Shown: in pieces, positions 5,316 through 17,786 of the stretch
How positions within the stretch are numbered: position 1 is the stretch's first letter
Layout of the letters: each line of letters starts with the position of its first letter
Assembly: GCA_020725005.1 (NCBI GenBank)
Contig: DYFW01000004.1
Span: forward strand, 1 to 52,143
From: Thiobacillus denitrificans
GTDB lineage: Bacteria; Pseudomonadota; Gammaproteobacteria; Burkholderiales; Thiobacillaceae
DNA length: 52,143 bases
Direction: 5' to 3'
Translations under genes and position numbers: made by a program
Notes under the pieces: model-generated
Told to the model about the DNA's origin: nothing
Database searches by the model: none
Seen by the model: only the letters and a program-made list of their open reading frames with translations

Positions 5316-5795
5316 TCAACGCTTGATCTGCAGGTCGTTTTTTACGTCCTTCACGCCTTCGACGCTGCGTGCGATGCGTTCGGCCTGCGTGATCTGGCCC
5401 GGGCTGCTGACCCAGCCCGAGAGCTGGACCGTGCCTTGATGGGTCGCCACCTTCACGTCGAGGCCCTTCACGCCTTCGTCCTTGACCAGCAAGGCTTTCA
5501 CCTTGGCGGTGATCCAGGCGTCGTCGACGTACTTGCCGGTCTTGAGGCGGTCGTTGTTGGCGACCGCCTTGGCGTATTCGTCGCTGCTGAGCTGTTTGTC
5601 GCCGTCGGCGTCGCCTTCGAGGAAGGCCTGCTCGACGCCGCCCACGGCCAGGAATTCCTGCAGGCTCACGGCGCCGTCGCCGTTGCGGTCGGCGGTCTTG
5701 AAGTTGGGCATGACCGGATTGGCCGCGGCAACGCCCGCGGCGCCGAGGACGCCGCTCAGAACGAGGGCCGGAAAGGCATGATTGAGGTTCTTCAT
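5316..5795 (-). CDS. Periplasmic EF-hand plus BON domain protein
   Basis: This encodes 159 residues from the ATG at 5795, behind AAGGAG. A signal peptide (cleavage near residue 25, VAAA) is followed by two canonical 12-residue EF-hand loops, D36-E47 (DRNGDGAVSLQE) and D62-E73 (DADGDKQLSSDE), with all calcium-ligand positions filled. A BON domain spans about 88-158 (AWITAKVKALLV, VATHQGTVQLSGWV, GVKDVKNDL). BON domains bind phospholipid in OsmY/DolP-type periplasmic proteins. A calcium-sensing envelope protein is inferred. It sits directly downstream of the GlrR-type activator gene and has a near-consensus sigma-54 promoter with an upstream palindrome. Confidence 0.85.
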   Translation of the reverse strand: MKNLNHAFPALVLSGVLGAAGVAAANPVMPNFKTADRNGDGAVSLQEFLAVGGVEQAFLEGDADGDKQLSSDEYAKAVANNDRLKTGKYVDDAWITAKVKALLVKDEGVKGLDVKVATHQGTVQLSGWVSSPGQITQAERIARSVEGVKDVKNDLQIKR

Positions 5796-5848: not shown

Positions 5849-5864
5849 AGCGATGACCGTGCCA
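5849..5864 (-). promoter_or_regulatory. Sigma-54 promoter of the EF-hand/BON gene
   Basis: On the minus strand the sequence is TGGCACG-GTCA-TCGCT, against the consensus TGGCACG-N4-TTGC[AT], with one mismatch. The invariant GG and GC have the correct 10-base spacing. It ends 54 bases before the ATG at 5795, leaving room for a short leader with the AAGGAG site. Confidence 0.75.
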
Positions 5865-5946: not shown

Positions 5947-5968
5947 TCCGTCGCCTGAAAGCGACGGA
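5947..5968. promoter_or_regulatory. Putative GlrR-type upstream activating site (BON gene)
   Basis: This is a perfect 8-base inverted repeat, TCCGTCGC-CTGAAA-GCGACGGA. Written as half-sites it is CGTC-N10-GACG, near the enterobacterial GlrR site TGTC-N10-GACA. Its centre is about 93 bases upstream of the -24 element. AT-rich DNA lies between. It could also be a weak terminator for the activator gene ending at 6038, but no T-run follows. Confidence 0.5.
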
Positions 5969-6037
5969 ATGCATGTAGATTGCCTAATTATTTGATTTTG
6001 AAGTCATCGCCAGTCGGCAATCGGAGACAACGGCGTT

Positions 6038-7393
6038 TCAACCGGCGTCGTCACGGTCCTTGAACAGCGCGGGGCTGAGGCCGTGGCGCTGCAGCAGGCG
6101 GTAGACCTCGGTGCGGTTGCGGCCGGCCAGCCGCGCGACCTCGCTGACATGGCCGCGGGTGAGCTTGAGCAGGTTGACGAGGTAATCGCGTTCGAAGGCG
6201 GCGCGCGCCTCGGCGAGCGGCTGGATTTCAGCCGGCTTGTCGCGCAGCGCGCGCGCCACCAGGCTGGCCGGGATCGTGGGGGTGGTGCACAGCGCGACGC
6301 ATTGCTCGAGCGCGTTGGCGAGCTGCCGGATGTTGCCGGGCCAGTCGGCGGCGGCCAGCATGTCGAGCGCGTCGGGCGCGAAGCCGCGGATGCGGCGGTG
6401 GTATTTCTCGGTGAGCGCGGCGAGGAAGTGCTGCGCGAGTAGCGGAATGTCTTCGCGTCGCTCGCGCAGCGGCGGCAGTCGCAGGTTGACGACGTTGAGG
6501 CGGTAATAGAGGTCCTCGCGGAAGCCGCCGCTGGCAACCGCCTCTTCCAGGTCGCAGTGGGTCGCCGACAGGATGCGCACGTCGACCGCGCGCATCTCGG
6601 TCGCGCCGACCGGACGCACTTCGCCTTCCTGCAGCACGCGTAGCAGCTTCACCTGCAAGGGCAGCGGCATGTCGCCGATCTCGTCGAGGAAGACCGTGCC
6701 GCCGTCGGCGCTCAAGAACAGGCCGGGATGGTCGCGCGTGGCGCCGGTGAAGGCACCTTTCACATGGCCGAAGAGTTCCGATTCGAGCAATTCGGCGGGA
6801 ATCGCGCCGCAGTTGATCGCGACGAAGGGCTTGCCGCGGCGCGGACTCGCATGGTGGATCGCGCGCGCGAGCAATTCCTTGCCGGTGCCCGATTCGCCCT
6901 GGATGAGGAGCGACGCCCCGCTTTGCGCGGCGAGCTTCGCCTCGGCGAGCAGCGTTTCCATCGCCGGGCTCGCAGTGACGATTTCGCTGCGCCAGCTGCT
7001 GTCGCCGTCGTCGGACGCGCCGCTGCCGGCGAGCCGGGTGGCGCGTTTCAGGAGATCGACCAGCGTCGCGGCGTCGTAGGGCTTGGTGAGGTAGCCGAAC
7101 AGGCCCTGCTGCGTTGCCGCGACGGCGTCGGGGATGGTGCCGTGCGCGGTCAGCACGATCACCGGCAGCGCCGGGTCGCGCGCGCGGATCGCATTGAACA
7201 GCGCCATGCCGTCCATGCCGTCCATCTGCATGTCGGTCAGCACGGCGTCCGGGCGCGCCACGGCCAGTCGCGCCAGCGCGGCCTCGCCGCTGCCGACCGC
7301 GTCGACGCGGAAGCCGTTGGCTTCCAGCCGCAGCGTGATCAGTTCGCGCAGCGCGGCGTCGTCGTCGACGACCAGGATGGCGGGCTGCTTCAT
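6038..7393 (-). CDS. glrR: Sigma-54 response regulator, GlrR/QseF type
   Basis: This encodes 451 residues. The receiver domain spans about 1-120, with acidic pocket DDD near residue 10, phospho-acceptor D54 (VLTDMQMDGMDG) and conserved Lys in LTKPYD. The AAA+ domain spans about 140-370, with Walker A GESGTGKE, an intact GAFTGA sigma-54 contact loop and Walker B FLDEIGDMPL. The C-terminal helix-turn-helix is in GHVSEVARLAGRNRTEVYRLL. The start is ATG 7393, overlapping the lipoprotein stop by 4 bases; the frame continues upstream without support. The family phosphorelays with GlrK/QseE to activate sigma-54 promoters. Two such promoters with GlrR-like sites are in this window. Assignment to GlrR and not another NtrC-type activator rests mainly on the kinase-lipoprotein-regulator gene order. 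Confidence 0.9.
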   Translation of the reverse strand: MKQPAILVVDDDAALRELITLRLEANGFRVDAVGSGEAALARLAVARPDAVLTDMQMDGMDGMALFNAIRARDPALPVIVLTAHGTIPDAVAATQQGLFGYLTKPYDAATLVDLLKRATRLAGSGASDDGDSSWRSEIVTASPAMETLLAEAKLAAQSGASLLIQGESGTGKELLARAIHHASPRRGKPFVAINCGAIPAELLESELFGHVKGAFTGATRDHPGLFLSADGGTVFLDEIGDMPLPLQVKLLRVLQEGEVRPVGATEMRAVDVRILSATHCDLEEAVASGGFREDLYYRLNVVNLRLPPLRERREDIPLLAQHFLAALTEKYHRRIRGFAPDALDMLAAADWPGNIRQLANALEQCVALCTTPTIPASLVARALRDKPAEIQPLAEARAAFERDYLVNLLKLTRGHVSEVARLAGRNRTEVYRLLQRHGLSPALFKDRDDAG

Positions 7394-7851
7394 GGTTTGG
7401 CCGGGGGGCGTTGTTGCAGGGATTTTTCCAGCGTCTTGATCTGCTCGAGCCGGTCCTGCAGTTCCTGCGCGCGCGCTGTCTGCAGCTTGAGGTCGATGCG
7501 CGCGCGCAGGCTGCGCTTCATGAGTTCGACCGCCGCCTGCGCGCGGGGATCGGACGCATCGATGGCATTCAGGGCGCGCACGCCGCGTTCGAGGGCCTCG
7601 ACGCTGTCCTCGCGTTCGAGCAGTGCCGCCAGCAGGAAGCGGCGTGTGTCGTCGAGCCGGTTGCCTTCCAGGGCGGCGAGTTCGCGGCGCCGCTGTTCGG
7701 CGGAGAGGCCGGCAACCCGCGCGAGTTCGCCCAGCATGGCATGGGCGCCGGTTTCCGGTTGCAGCGCGCGCAGCGCCGGCGAGTCGGGAAGCTGGGCGCA
7801 TGCCGCCAGCGACAGCAGCAACGTTGCAAGCAGTAACGGTTTGGCGGTCAT
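7390..7851 (-). CDS. qseG: QseG-like lipoprotein between kinase and regulator
   Basis: This encodes 153 residues. It has a type II signal peptide with lipobox LAAC (Cys18) and a predicted helical mature domain with a C-terminal coiled-coil-like region (ARAQELQDRLEQIKTLEKSLQQ). Position and length match QseG/YfhG, the outer-membrane lipoprotein that modulates QseE/GlrK in enterobacteria. It overlaps both neighbours by 4 bases (ATGA type), showing strict translational coupling of the three genes. Sequence similarity to enterobacterial QseG is not obvious by eye, so the name rests on synteny and architecture. Confidence 0.75.
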   Translation of the reverse strand: MTAKPLLLATLLLSLAACAQLPDSPALRALQPETGAHAMLGELARVAGLSAEQRRRELAALEGNRLDDTRRFLLAALLEREDSVEALERGVRALNAIDASDPRAQAAVELMKRSLRARIDLKLQTARAQELQDRLEQIKTLEKSLQQRPPAKP

Positions 7852-9299
7852 GTCGGAGACGGTGGGTGGGTGGGCCAGCTTAAACGAATACAGGTCGACC
7901 AGGGAGGACAGTCGGCGACGTCGGCGGTTCCCCCGGCCGCGCGCAGCGTCTCGCGCACGATCGACAGGCCGAGCCCGCTGCCCTTGACCGCGCTCGCCGG
8001 CTGGCGCGCCCCCTGGTAGAAGGGCTCGAACACGTGCGGGCGCTCCGCGGCCGGGATGCCGGGGCCCTCGTCGCATACCGTCACCCGGACCGCGCCGTCG
8101 ATGGCTTCGCTTTTCACCAGGATGCGGCCGCCCTCGGGACTGAATTTGACCGCATTCGACAACAGATTGTCGAGCACGGTTTCCAGCTGGCCGCGTTCGG
8201 CCATCACGCTGTCCGCGGCAAACTGCGTCTCGACGCGGAGCTGGCGCGTGGCGAGCGTCAGCCGCTGCCGCGCCAGCACCGCGTCGAGCACGGCGGCGAG
8301 CGGCTGCGCCGTGGCGGGCGGCTGGGCGCCGTCCTGCATCATGCCGCCGTAGCGGATCAGGTCCTCGATCCGCCGCTGCAGCTCGCGGCTGCCGGTGTCC
8401 ATGATGCTGACGATGCTGCGCTGGCGCGCGTTGAGGCTGCCGGCGAGTTCGTCGTCGAGCAGCGCGACCCCTTCGCGCAGCGATGCCAGCGGCGTTTTGA
8501 GTTCGTGCGAGACATGGCGCAGAAAACGCAGCTTCTGCGCTTCCAGCGCCTGGAGGCGCTGCCGCAGCCAGTCGAGTTCACGCCCCAGTTCGACCAGGTC
8601 GTGCGGGCCGCTGATGGTGGGCAGCGGCCGCAGGTCTGCCTGGCCGAGCTGCTGGATCGCGGCCTTCATCTGCCGGATCGGAAGGTTGATCAGCCAGGAA
8701 AACACGCCGGCGAGCAGCAACGTCAGCGGAATCAGCGCGAACATGAGCCAGATCAGGCGCTGGCGGGTGTTTTGCAGCCGCGCTTCCAGCGCCTGCTGGT
8801 CGCGCTGCACGACGGCGTCGGTTTCGACGAGCAGGCTGCGCGCGGCCGCATGCAGCGCATCGAACGCGGGCGCCTGGGCGTGGAAGCGGGCGCTGTCGAG
8901 AAAGGCGCCGGGCTGGAGGGCGCGGTAAAGGGCGCGCGCGCGGGTGCGCATGGCGGCCAGCGTGGTATGCGCCGGCGTGCCGGCAAGCGGCGCGTCGAGG
9001 CGCGTGAGCAGCGCCTGCAATTCCTCGTGGCGGCGGCGCAGGGTGGGACCGAACTCGGCGTCCTGCAGCAGATGGTATTGCCCCGCGGCGCGCTGGAGCT
9101 GGCCGACCGCCTCGGCGACCTGGCGCACGTCGCGGGTGACGGCGAGGCTGGTTGCCGCGAACGCGCGCTGCGTGTCGGCCACGCCCTGCAGCACGCGCAC
9201 GGCGTTGATGAGGCCGCTGGCGAGCGGCAGGATGAGCACGCCCATCGCGATGACGACGAGCAGGGTGAACGAGCGGGGGTAATAACGGCCGGCGGTCAT
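7848..9299 (-). CDS. glrK: Sensor histidine kinase, GlrK/QseE type
   Basis: This encodes 483 residues from ATG 9299. TM1 is at about 10-33 (FTLLVVIAMGVLILPLASGL), followed by a helical periplasmic domain of about 150 residues and TM2 at about 180-204. A HAMP-like linker leads to HisKA, with phospho-His H265 (RHVSHELKTPLASL). The HATPase domain has N box (DNLLSNAVKFSPEGG), G1 (CDEGPGIP) and G2 (GSGLGLSIVRETL). It is coupled by 4-base overlap to the lipoprotein and regulator genes. It lies 67 bases after gltD, so it probably reads through from the glutamate synthase operon. No strong SD precedes the ATG, consistent with coupling or weak initiation. Confidence 0.9.
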   Translation of the reverse strand: MTAGRYYPRSFTLLVVIAMGVLILPLASGLINAVRVLQGVADTQRAFAATSLAVTRDVRQVAEAVGQLQRAAGQYHLLQDAEFGPTLRRRHEELQALLTRLDAPLAGTPAHTTLAAMRTRARALYRALQPGAFLDSARFHAQAPAFDALHAAARSLLVETDAVVQRDQQALEARLQNTRQRLIWLMFALIPLTLLLAGVFSWLINLPIRQMKAAIQQLGQADLRPLPTISGPHDLVELGRELDWLRQRLQALEAQKLRFLRHVSHELKTPLASLREGVALLDDELAGSLNARQRSIVSIMDTGSRELQRRIEDLIRYGGMMQDGAQPPATAQPLAAVLDAVLARQRLTLATRQLRVETQFAADSVMAERGQLETVLDNLLSNAVKFSPEGGRILVKSEAIDGAVRVTVCDEGPGIPAAERPHVFEPFYQGARQPASAVKGSGLGLSIVRETLRAAGGTADVADCPPWSTCIRLSWPTHPPSPT

Positions 9300-16906: not shown

Positions 16907-16946
16907 CGAGGGTTTCGAGACCGGCGATTCTTGCCGGCTGAAGGGA

Positions 16947-16980
16947 TGCCTGTCGTCATCGTGCGACAGGCATTATTTGT
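16947..16980 (+). terminator. Intrinsic terminator after the DUF2846 gene
   Basis: TGCCTGTCG (16947-16955) pairs perfectly with CGACAGGCA (16964-16972) around an 8-base loop and is followed by TTATTTGTTT. A smaller CCGGC/GCCGG hairpin lies just upstream at about 16921-16938. Confidence 0.8.
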
Positions 16981-17012: not shown

Positions 17013-17046
17013 TGTCGATCATTTTTGATGTCGTCGATAGGCGACG
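17013..17046. promoter_or_regulatory. Putative tandem GlrR-type activating sites (bactofilin)
   Basis: TGTC-N10-GACG at 17029-17046 matches the enterobacterial GlrR consensus TGTC-N10-GACA at 7 of 8 positions and contains GTCG-N8-CGAC. An adjoining TGTC-N10-GATG lies at 17013-17030, a 6 of 8 match offset by 16 bases. The better site is centred about 83 bases upstream of the sigma-54 promoter at 17121, with an AT-rich stretch (TTTTAAAAAGGTTTT) between them. Confidence 0.5.
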
Positions 17047-17120
17047 ATATTGCGGGCGAATAAAGCCCCTGAAGCCGCTCCTTCATTCCATATCGCTGTT
17101 TTAAAAAGGTTTTCTCTTGC

Positions 17121-17136
17121 TGGCACGGAGCCTGCA
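17121..17136 (+). promoter_or_regulatory. Sigma-54 promoter of the bactofilin gene
   Basis: TGGCACG-GAGC-CTGCA matches TGGCACG-N4-TTGC[AT] except for one T, with GG and GC correctly spaced. It is preceded by CT, as usual for these promoters. The expected start is near 17147, about 60 bases before the bactofilin ATG. Confidence 0.75.
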
Positions 17137-17207
17137 CCGAGACAGCAGCGGCCAGTTCCGGCCGCGACCCCACCCGAGCGTTCCAACCCAGATACAGAGA
17201 GAGACCC

Positions 17208-17786
17208 ATGCTCAAGACTTTCATGCAACCCGGCGCATCCGCCACCCCGCGCGCCGACGCGAACCGTCCCGCCCGCGCGGCCGCCTATGCCCCCGGCAGG
17301 ACGGTCGACGCCCCCAAGGCCGCCGCCTCGCCGGACGTGCCGGACGAGGCAGGCAGCAAGCTCATCGTCGGGCCGAACATCAAGCTGAAAGGCTCGGAAA
17401 TCACCGACTGCGAAATCCTGGTGGTGGAAGGCCGCGTGGAGGCGTCGATGAACAGCCGGGTGATCCGTATCGCCGAGGGCGGCGTGTTTTCCGGCAAGGC
17501 GGAAATCGACGTGGCGGAAATCCACGGCCGTTTCGAGGGCGATCTCACCGCGCGCAAGCGCCTGGTGATCCACGCCACCGGCAGGGTGACCGGCACGATC
17601 CGCTACGGCGCGATGAGCGTCGAGGAAGGCGGCACGCTGGCGGGCGACGTGGCGACGCTGGCGCCGGTCCCCAGCCTCGTCAAGGTCGAAAACACGCAGG
17701 CCCCCGAACCTGACGGCGAAGCGGTCGTCACGGCGGACGCCGCGCCGACCGCCGTGTTCGGCCGCCAGCAATCCGCCCGTCGCTGA
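17208..17786 (+). CDS. Bactofilin (polymer-forming cytoskeletal protein)
   Basis: This encodes 192 residues from the ATG at 17208, behind AGAGAGAG. Residues 1-50 are a disordered Ala/Pro/Arg-rich tail. About 52-150 is a bactofilin domain of short beta-helix turns (LIVGPNIKLKGSEI, EILVVEGRVEASM, GVFSGKAEIDVAEIHGRFEGDL, RVTGTIRYGAMSVEEGG). The C-terminal tail is again disordered. Bactofilins form non-nucleotide filaments that organise envelope functions. It is flanked by terminators on both sides, so it is monocistronic. Control by a sigma-54 promoter with GlrR-like sites is inferred from the upstream sequence. Confidence 0.92.
   Translation: MLKTFMQPGASATPRADANRPARAAAYAPGRTVDAPKAAASPDVPDEAGSKLIVGPNIKLKGSEITDCEILVVEGRVEASMNSRVIRIAEGGVFSGKAEIDVAEIHGRFEGDLTARKRLVIHATGRVTGTIRYGAMSVEEGGTLAGDVATLAPVPSLVKVENTQAPEPDGEAVVTADAAPTAVFGRQQSARR

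Follow-up and report, generated by a model that had tools for sequence, protein, structure and literature searches.

We propose that the bactofilin gene in the window, that is, the whole stretch of 52,143 nucleotides that was analysed, is transcribed from a sigma-54 promoter activated by a response regulator of the GlrR type. Judging from sequence comparison, we regard this reading as probable. Such control had been claimed in an earlier note on this DNA. The claim gained support from the conservation of the promoter and its sites in the genus and partly beyond, from a GlrR-like regulator encoded in the window, from a site-promoter module that follows glrR in all of the best 30 of 58 glrR loci, and from the absence of the motif upstream of bactofilin in all 10 genomes without GlrR and GlrK. 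Comparison among relatives established the promoter and its two sites, how far apart these are spaced, and that they go together with glrR.

The bactofilin gene (17208-17786, forward strand) encodes 192 amino acid residues. The product scored 64.7 bits (9.7e-18) against the Pfam family Bactofilin (PF04519), for which the gathering score is 27.9, and it is therefore a member of this family. It shares the Pfam Bactofilin domain with the bactofilins of Caulobacter (BacA) and Myxococcus, and its match to BacA (PDB 2n3d, Bactofilin A) was weak (5.4e-4). The protein matches included records of Thiobacillus, Sulfuriferula, and related ones. Of 80 relatives, 48 had the bactofilin protein, and these were mostly members of the genus. 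The genus loci described below were taken from the best 30 matches, our own locus included; as these 30 loci are related, counts from them are not independent events. Some relatives (G003, G007, and G043) had more than one bactofilin-like match. The second copy in G003 (L143) has the same promoter with sites, and the second copy in G043 (L140) has none.

The gene is preceded by a -24/-12 element (TGGCACGGAGCCTGCA, 17121-17136, forward strand). The earlier note had placed this sigma-54 promoter 72 bases ahead of the ATG; the position of the element was confirmed, and the distance to the ATG at 17208 as counted here is 71 bases. An element with 9 to 11 of the 12 consensus bases is located before bactofilin in all 30 genus loci (best 30), and rpoN is encoded in the same genome (the assembly containing the window is 3.26 Mb). 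A search of the whole genome with the plain -24/-12 pattern was uninformative, giving 52 matches as against 53 with the reversed control.

Two GlrR-type sites lie upstream of this element on the forward strand. The distal site (TGTCGTCATCGTGCGACA, 16951-16968), which was absent from the earlier note, is a perfect TGTC-N10-GACA and the best match of the locus; a gap of 152 bp separates it from the -24 box. The proximal site (TGTCGTCGATAGGCGACG, 17029-17046), 74 bp upstream of the -24 box, is the previously claimed TGTC-N10-GACG, and it indeed agrees with the consensus at 7 of 8 bases. At fixed distances from the promoter, and with one mismatch or fewer, the distal site was found in 30 and the proximal site in 20 of the 30 genus loci (best 30), as compared with maxima of 2 and 1, respectively, in 500 dinucleotide shuffles. 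The 11 permuted motifs gave no matches at either position in these loci. Because the two sites are conserved at fixed distances from the promoter, the pair is beyond chance. A TGTC-N10-GATG overlapping the proximal site (17013-17030, forward strand, 6/8 match) had also been claimed as a site. It exists in the sequence, and we judged it spurious, not a conserved GlrR site, because it was matched with two mismatches or fewer in 2 of the 30 genus loci, our own included.

A lone 7/8 match to this motif is weak evidence. The window contains 21 matches at one mismatch or fewer, as compared with 13.5 expected, and 2 of 100 shuffles reached 21. Perfect TGTC-N10-GACA palindromes numbered 41 in the whole genome, as compared with 26 for the control. 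The totals of sites plus promoters in 50 genus genomes were uninformative (7 in our own genome and 6 for the control, among the matches listed), and after this only site-plus-promoter units that recur beside the same gene were followed.

The distal palindrome might instead serve only as a terminator hairpin for the DUF2846 gene that lies upstream, with the proximal site a chance match. A terminator scan did find a hairpin followed by T at 16945-16974, covering the distal site, and 7/8 matches are common in the window, as described above. This reading of 16951-16968 as a terminator only is nevertheless extremely improbable, because the palindrome holds its distance to the promoter in all 30 genus loci (best 30) and because the upstream ORF in G033 and G026 is, by eye, unlike the DUF2846 protein. 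In this genome, the distal palindrome may also end the upstream transcript, in addition to its proposed role as a GlrR-type site.

In a second set of 60 loci, from named genomes, many of which are the same records as the 30 genus loci and at least five of which are also in the set of regions outside the genus described below, 53 loci have the promoter together with one or both sites, and in 41 the two sites are present. One of the seven loci without the promoter plus a site has 1 base of upstream sequence. The site-to-site spacings in this set were 68 bp (3 loci), 76 bp (3), 77 bp (2), 78 bp (27), 88 bp (5), and 89 bp (1), so that the spacing classes step by about one helical turn.

Two conserved T-rich blocks also lie upstream of bactofilin, one (TTTTGTTTT..ATTC) located between the sites and the other (CTGTTTATNAACAG) immediately ahead of the -24 box, and in some relatives they match the IHF consensus with one mismatch. 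Between the proximal site and the -24 box, the 30 loci contain no exact match to the IHF consensus, and 13 of them have a match at one mismatch or fewer (200 shuffles gave a mean of 2.7 and at most 7). The stretch from one site to the other contains 2 exact matches and 13 at one mismatch or fewer in the 30 loci, as compared with 3.3 on average and at most 9 in the shuffles. In the window itself, no IHF match at one mismatch or fewer was found in the 74-bp stretch on either strand. An IHF site upstream of bactofilin is a possibility for the relatives.

As a positive control, the same rule was applied to E. coli glmY, where it found a -24/-12 element preceded by three perfect sites, the gaps being 89, 152, and 185 bp; we take these three to be the published sites. 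The bactofilin locus resembles the glmY promoter in having TGTC-N10-GACA palindromes upstream of a -24/-12 element, and a gap of 152 bp occurs in both. It differs in the number of sites (two here, three at glmY), in the nearest gap (74 bp here, 89 bp at glmY), and in the target, which is a small RNA in E. coli and a protein-coding bactofilin gene here. The E. coli rpoE promoter, which is described in the available part of PMC6075780 as sigma-54 dependent and as a target of QseF, offers a further likeness, namely another envelope-related target of the same regulator type with a sigma-54 promoter. As conservation does not give the direction of regulation, the conserved sites could have another effect, for example repression, with bactofilin transcribed mainly from another promoter. 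We consider this very unlikely, as the -24/-12 element itself is conserved along with the sites and the distances between them resemble those found at E. coli glmY.

A candidate for the activator at this promoter is encoded in the window itself, about 10 kb from bactofilin. The gene at 6038-7393 (reverse strand, with a predicted start codon) encodes a sigma-54 response regulator that is 55% identical to E. coli GlrR, the regulator of the glmY system, over 445 aligned positions, and AGRNRTE-Y-LL-RH near the C-terminus is common to both. GlrR (NF011695) was the best NCBIfam model of the product, which is also the genome's best match to this model; the regulator is named GlrR-like because its score, 585.8 bits, is under the curated cut-off of 763. 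A glrK-like gene (7848-9299, reverse strand) encodes a sensor kinase that is 33% identical to E. coli GlrK and contains HAMP, HisKA, and HATPase_c domains. The qseG position is occupied by a small lipoprotein-like gene (7390-7851, reverse strand), assigned from its position and ORF; its product gave no meaningful alignment with E. coli QseG and no Pfam match. The order of kinase, lipoprotein, and regulator, all on the reverse strand, is the same as that of E. coli GlrK-QseG-GlrR. Three features of a GlrR/QseF-type promoter were found here, namely a -24/-12 element, upstream TGTC-N10-GACA sites, and a GlrR-type regulator in the genome.

The gene directly downstream of glrR (5316-5795, reverse strand) encodes an EF-hand and BON (OsmY-like) protein, with Pfam matches to both domains. 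The product is probably exported, as judged by eye from its N-terminus, and the gene is likely to be a second GlrR target. Its -24/-12 element (TGGCACGGTCATCGCT, 5849-5864, reverse strand) is preceded on the same strand by two GlrR-type sites, CGTCGCTTTCAGGCGACG (5949-5966, two mismatches) at 84 bp and TGTCTCCGATTGCCGACT (6012-6029, one mismatch) at 147 bp upstream. Strong matches to the GlrR-like regulator were obtained in 58 of 80 relatives, and the loci studied were taken from the best 30, all of this genus. GlrR-type sites (two mismatches or fewer) and a -24/-12 element were located directly downstream of glrR in all 30 (best 30 of 58), and this module was present twice in 21 of them. With the same rule, the 11 permuted motifs gave the module after glrR in 0 to 2 of the 30 loci and never twice. 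The gaps were 72-75 bp in the first of two modules and 84-87 bp in the other, with 147-150 bp in addition where the second site is kept.

By a crude string search, 19 of the 30 glrR loci encode a DUF1328-like protein and 18 an EF-hand, and Pfam confirmed DUF1328 in L241. In many relatives, a gene for a DUF1328-like membrane protein of about 56 amino acid residues lies between glrR and the EF-hand gene (L241:247-414 and L242-L247), and in the relatives with this gene the stop codon of glrR is directly followed by a GlrR-type site. Seven stretches picked by likeness among the matches listed contain two sites 65 bp apart and then a -24/-12 element. In L238:493-819, L239, and L240:486-815, the 65-bp site pair and the element are followed by a Gly/Ala-rich, probably exported protein, for which the L238 and L240 copies gave no Pfam match.

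Among 300 genomes of the order, we found bactofilin in 59 (threshold 1e-25) and a GlrR match in 120 (1e-140, with five candidates scored per genome). GlrR was present in 47 of the 59 genomes with bactofilin and in 73 of the 241 without (Fisher p 6e-12, relatedness ignored). When corrected for GlrK, the table contains 49 of 59 bactofilin-bearing genomes with GlrR or GlrK, and this table is biased because GlrK was sought in bactofilin-bearing genomes only. Within the genus (48 genomes), GlrR or GlrK was present in 36 of 41 genomes with bactofilin and in 2 of 7 without (p 0.0025, relatedness ignored); with GlrR alone, the numbers were 35 of 40 and 3 of 8 (p 0.006, relatedness likewise ignored). 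Several of the 48 genomes are only 75-84% complete, and G007 was counted as positive by GlrK alone.

We then compared 57 upstream regions of bactofilin from outside the genus (503, 700, or 901 bases; the eight regions of 700 bases include some coding sequence). At one mismatch or fewer, 39 of the 47 genomes with GlrR or GlrK contain the motif and none of the 10 without does, negatives that are not independent because they are confined to four families. Perfect copies were found in 18 of 47 and 0 of 10, respectively, and 20 of the 47 and none of the 10 have a pair of sites at a distance of 60-95 bp. The remaining 8 of the 47 positives have no motif upstream of bactofilin. In the 47 positives, the 11 permuted motifs gave 0 to 1 pairs, and single sites at one mismatch or fewer in 6 to 20 genomes. 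The spacing in the 20 pairs was 65-68 bp (11), 75-78 bp (8), and 92 bp (1), the two main classes again differing by about one helical turn. A GlrR match at 1e-140 was lacking in 12 of the 57 genomes, and G199 and G267 were moved to the positives by a GlrK match after their upstream regions had been seen. By GlrR alone, the motif was found in 37 of 45 genomes with and 2 of 12 without the regulator (p 0.00005). Pairs are present in 19 of the 45 and in 1 of the 12 (p 0.04), and the composite of a site plus a -24/-12 element in 18 of 45 and 0 of 12 (permuted motifs, 1 to 3 of 45). Outside the genus, 45 genomes have bactofilin as well as glrR, and as a raw count the two genes lie within 7 kb on the same contig in 8 of these (G060, G160, G170, G244, G266, G274, G319, and G334, from four families). 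In G319, bactofilin is near glrR, yet there is no site.

Two relatives, both 99% complete, deserve separate mention. G026 keeps the promoter and the perfect distal site, and its proximal position has two mismatches. It gave no match at the GlrR or GlrK level (best GlrR-model score, 395 bits), and its EF-hand match is absent, with BON only. Either the glr cluster is missing from this assembly, or another regulator uses the distal site. In G006, neither GlrR nor GlrK was found; its bactofilin fragment lacks a promoter of this kind, with just one off-position site match. The distal site of G026, kept without GlrR or GlrK, counts against the GlrR reading and speaks for the idea that the promoter depends on sigma-54 while the palindromes are bound by another activator, such as PrsR (the PEP-CTERM regulator), NtrC, or an unnamed protein. 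Candidates are at hand: our genome encodes 14 proteins with a clear Sigma54_activat domain, that is, 13 besides the GlrR-like one, and in an NCBIfam scan of 10 of 15 proteins (the 14 and an NtrX-like one), the PEP-CTERM-box regulator was matched strongly (767 bits), and NtrC was also among those scanned. We consider a different activator unlikely, as the palindromes fit the QseF consensus, given as TGTCN10GACA in the available part of PMC8745638, and as the same motif follows glrR in 30 of 30 loci (best 30 of 58) and none of the 10 genomes lacking GlrR and GlrK carries it ahead of bactofilin.

The 5' leader of bactofilin contains a possible hairpin, GCGGCC-loop-GGCCGC (17148-17165, forward strand). 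In an alignment of 35 of 48 leaders (A1; the other 13 were dropped by eye as longer or divergent), 90.2% of the cells were paired, and 16 double-change cells were observed, as compared with a shuffled mean of 7.3. With all 48 leaders, the hairpin was weaker and still visible (83.6% paired; 19 double-change cells, as compared with 9.0 on average after shuffling and 3 to 12 in slid controls). In A1, the measures least sensitive to relatedness did not exceed the shuffles, as 3 pairs were reached by 310 of 500 and the types by 208 of 500; with all 48 leaders, the pair and type measures were reached by 26 of 500 and 51 of 500, respectively. As these measures were not strongly exceeded, the hairpin is suggestive only. 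We suspect that it acts in transcript stability or translation control. A conserved leader word, GAGCGU, is complementary to the start region AUGCUC; this pairing was proposed by the fold, and the AUGCUC side hardly varies.

The earlier note knew of no described link between GlrKR/QseEF and bactofilins, and we likewise found no GlrR-bactofilin or QseF-bactofilin link in the literature searched, a weak absence since preprints were absent from it and subscription papers were few. According to the available part of PMC5590869, Caulobacter BacA/BacB polymerise near the membrane and recruit PbpC, and the sigma-54 relay ShkA-ShpA-TacA is linked to stalk synthesis; that of PMC11208175 reports that bacA is up at low cytoplasmic phosphate. 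Unlike the case presented here, these accounts name, in the parts available, neither GlrR nor sigma-54 control of bacA. The direct-target table of NtrYX contains a binding peak near the bactofilin-family gene RSP_2975 (PMC7240162, available part), which resembles our case in that a response regulator is tied to a bactofilin-family gene, the regulator being a different one; we read the values in that table row, 0.06 and 0.99, as no expression change. CcmA was affinity-purified with VemR, and regulation is not reported in the available part of PMC9218911. QseF-like regulators were counted in PMC3162934, the available part of which does not mention bactofilin.

From these comparisons we infer the binding, the phosphorylation, the signal, and the physiological role, as follows. 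GlrK would sense the state of the envelope and phosphorylate GlrR, which would bind the palindromes at 16951-16968 and 17029-17046. The DNA between the sites and the promoter would loop, and RNA polymerase with sigma-54 would open the promoter at 17121-17136. The transcript would consist of a leader with a likely hairpin, followed by the translated bactofilin sequence, and the bactofilin polymer could organise wall or envelope enzymes. GlrR probably also drives the EF-hand/BON gene beside glrR and, in relatives, DUF1328. A wider proposal, about which we are somewhat more doubtful than confident, is that in this order a cytoskeletal and periplasmic response of GlrKR replaces the enterobacterial GlmY/RpoE response, that a single GlrR regulon, in which the paired sites are helically phased, comprises bactofilin, EF-hand/BON, and DUF1328, and that bactofilin mRNA is under a second, RNA-level control by its leader.

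In sulfur bacteria and certain relatives, a bactofilin scaffold may thus be controlled by envelope signals. If this is true, GlrKR would gain a cytoskeletal target, and an envelope sensor would be linked to a polymer able to scaffold wall enzymes. The locus would also provide a ready test system, in which the regulator, the sites, and the target are all named.
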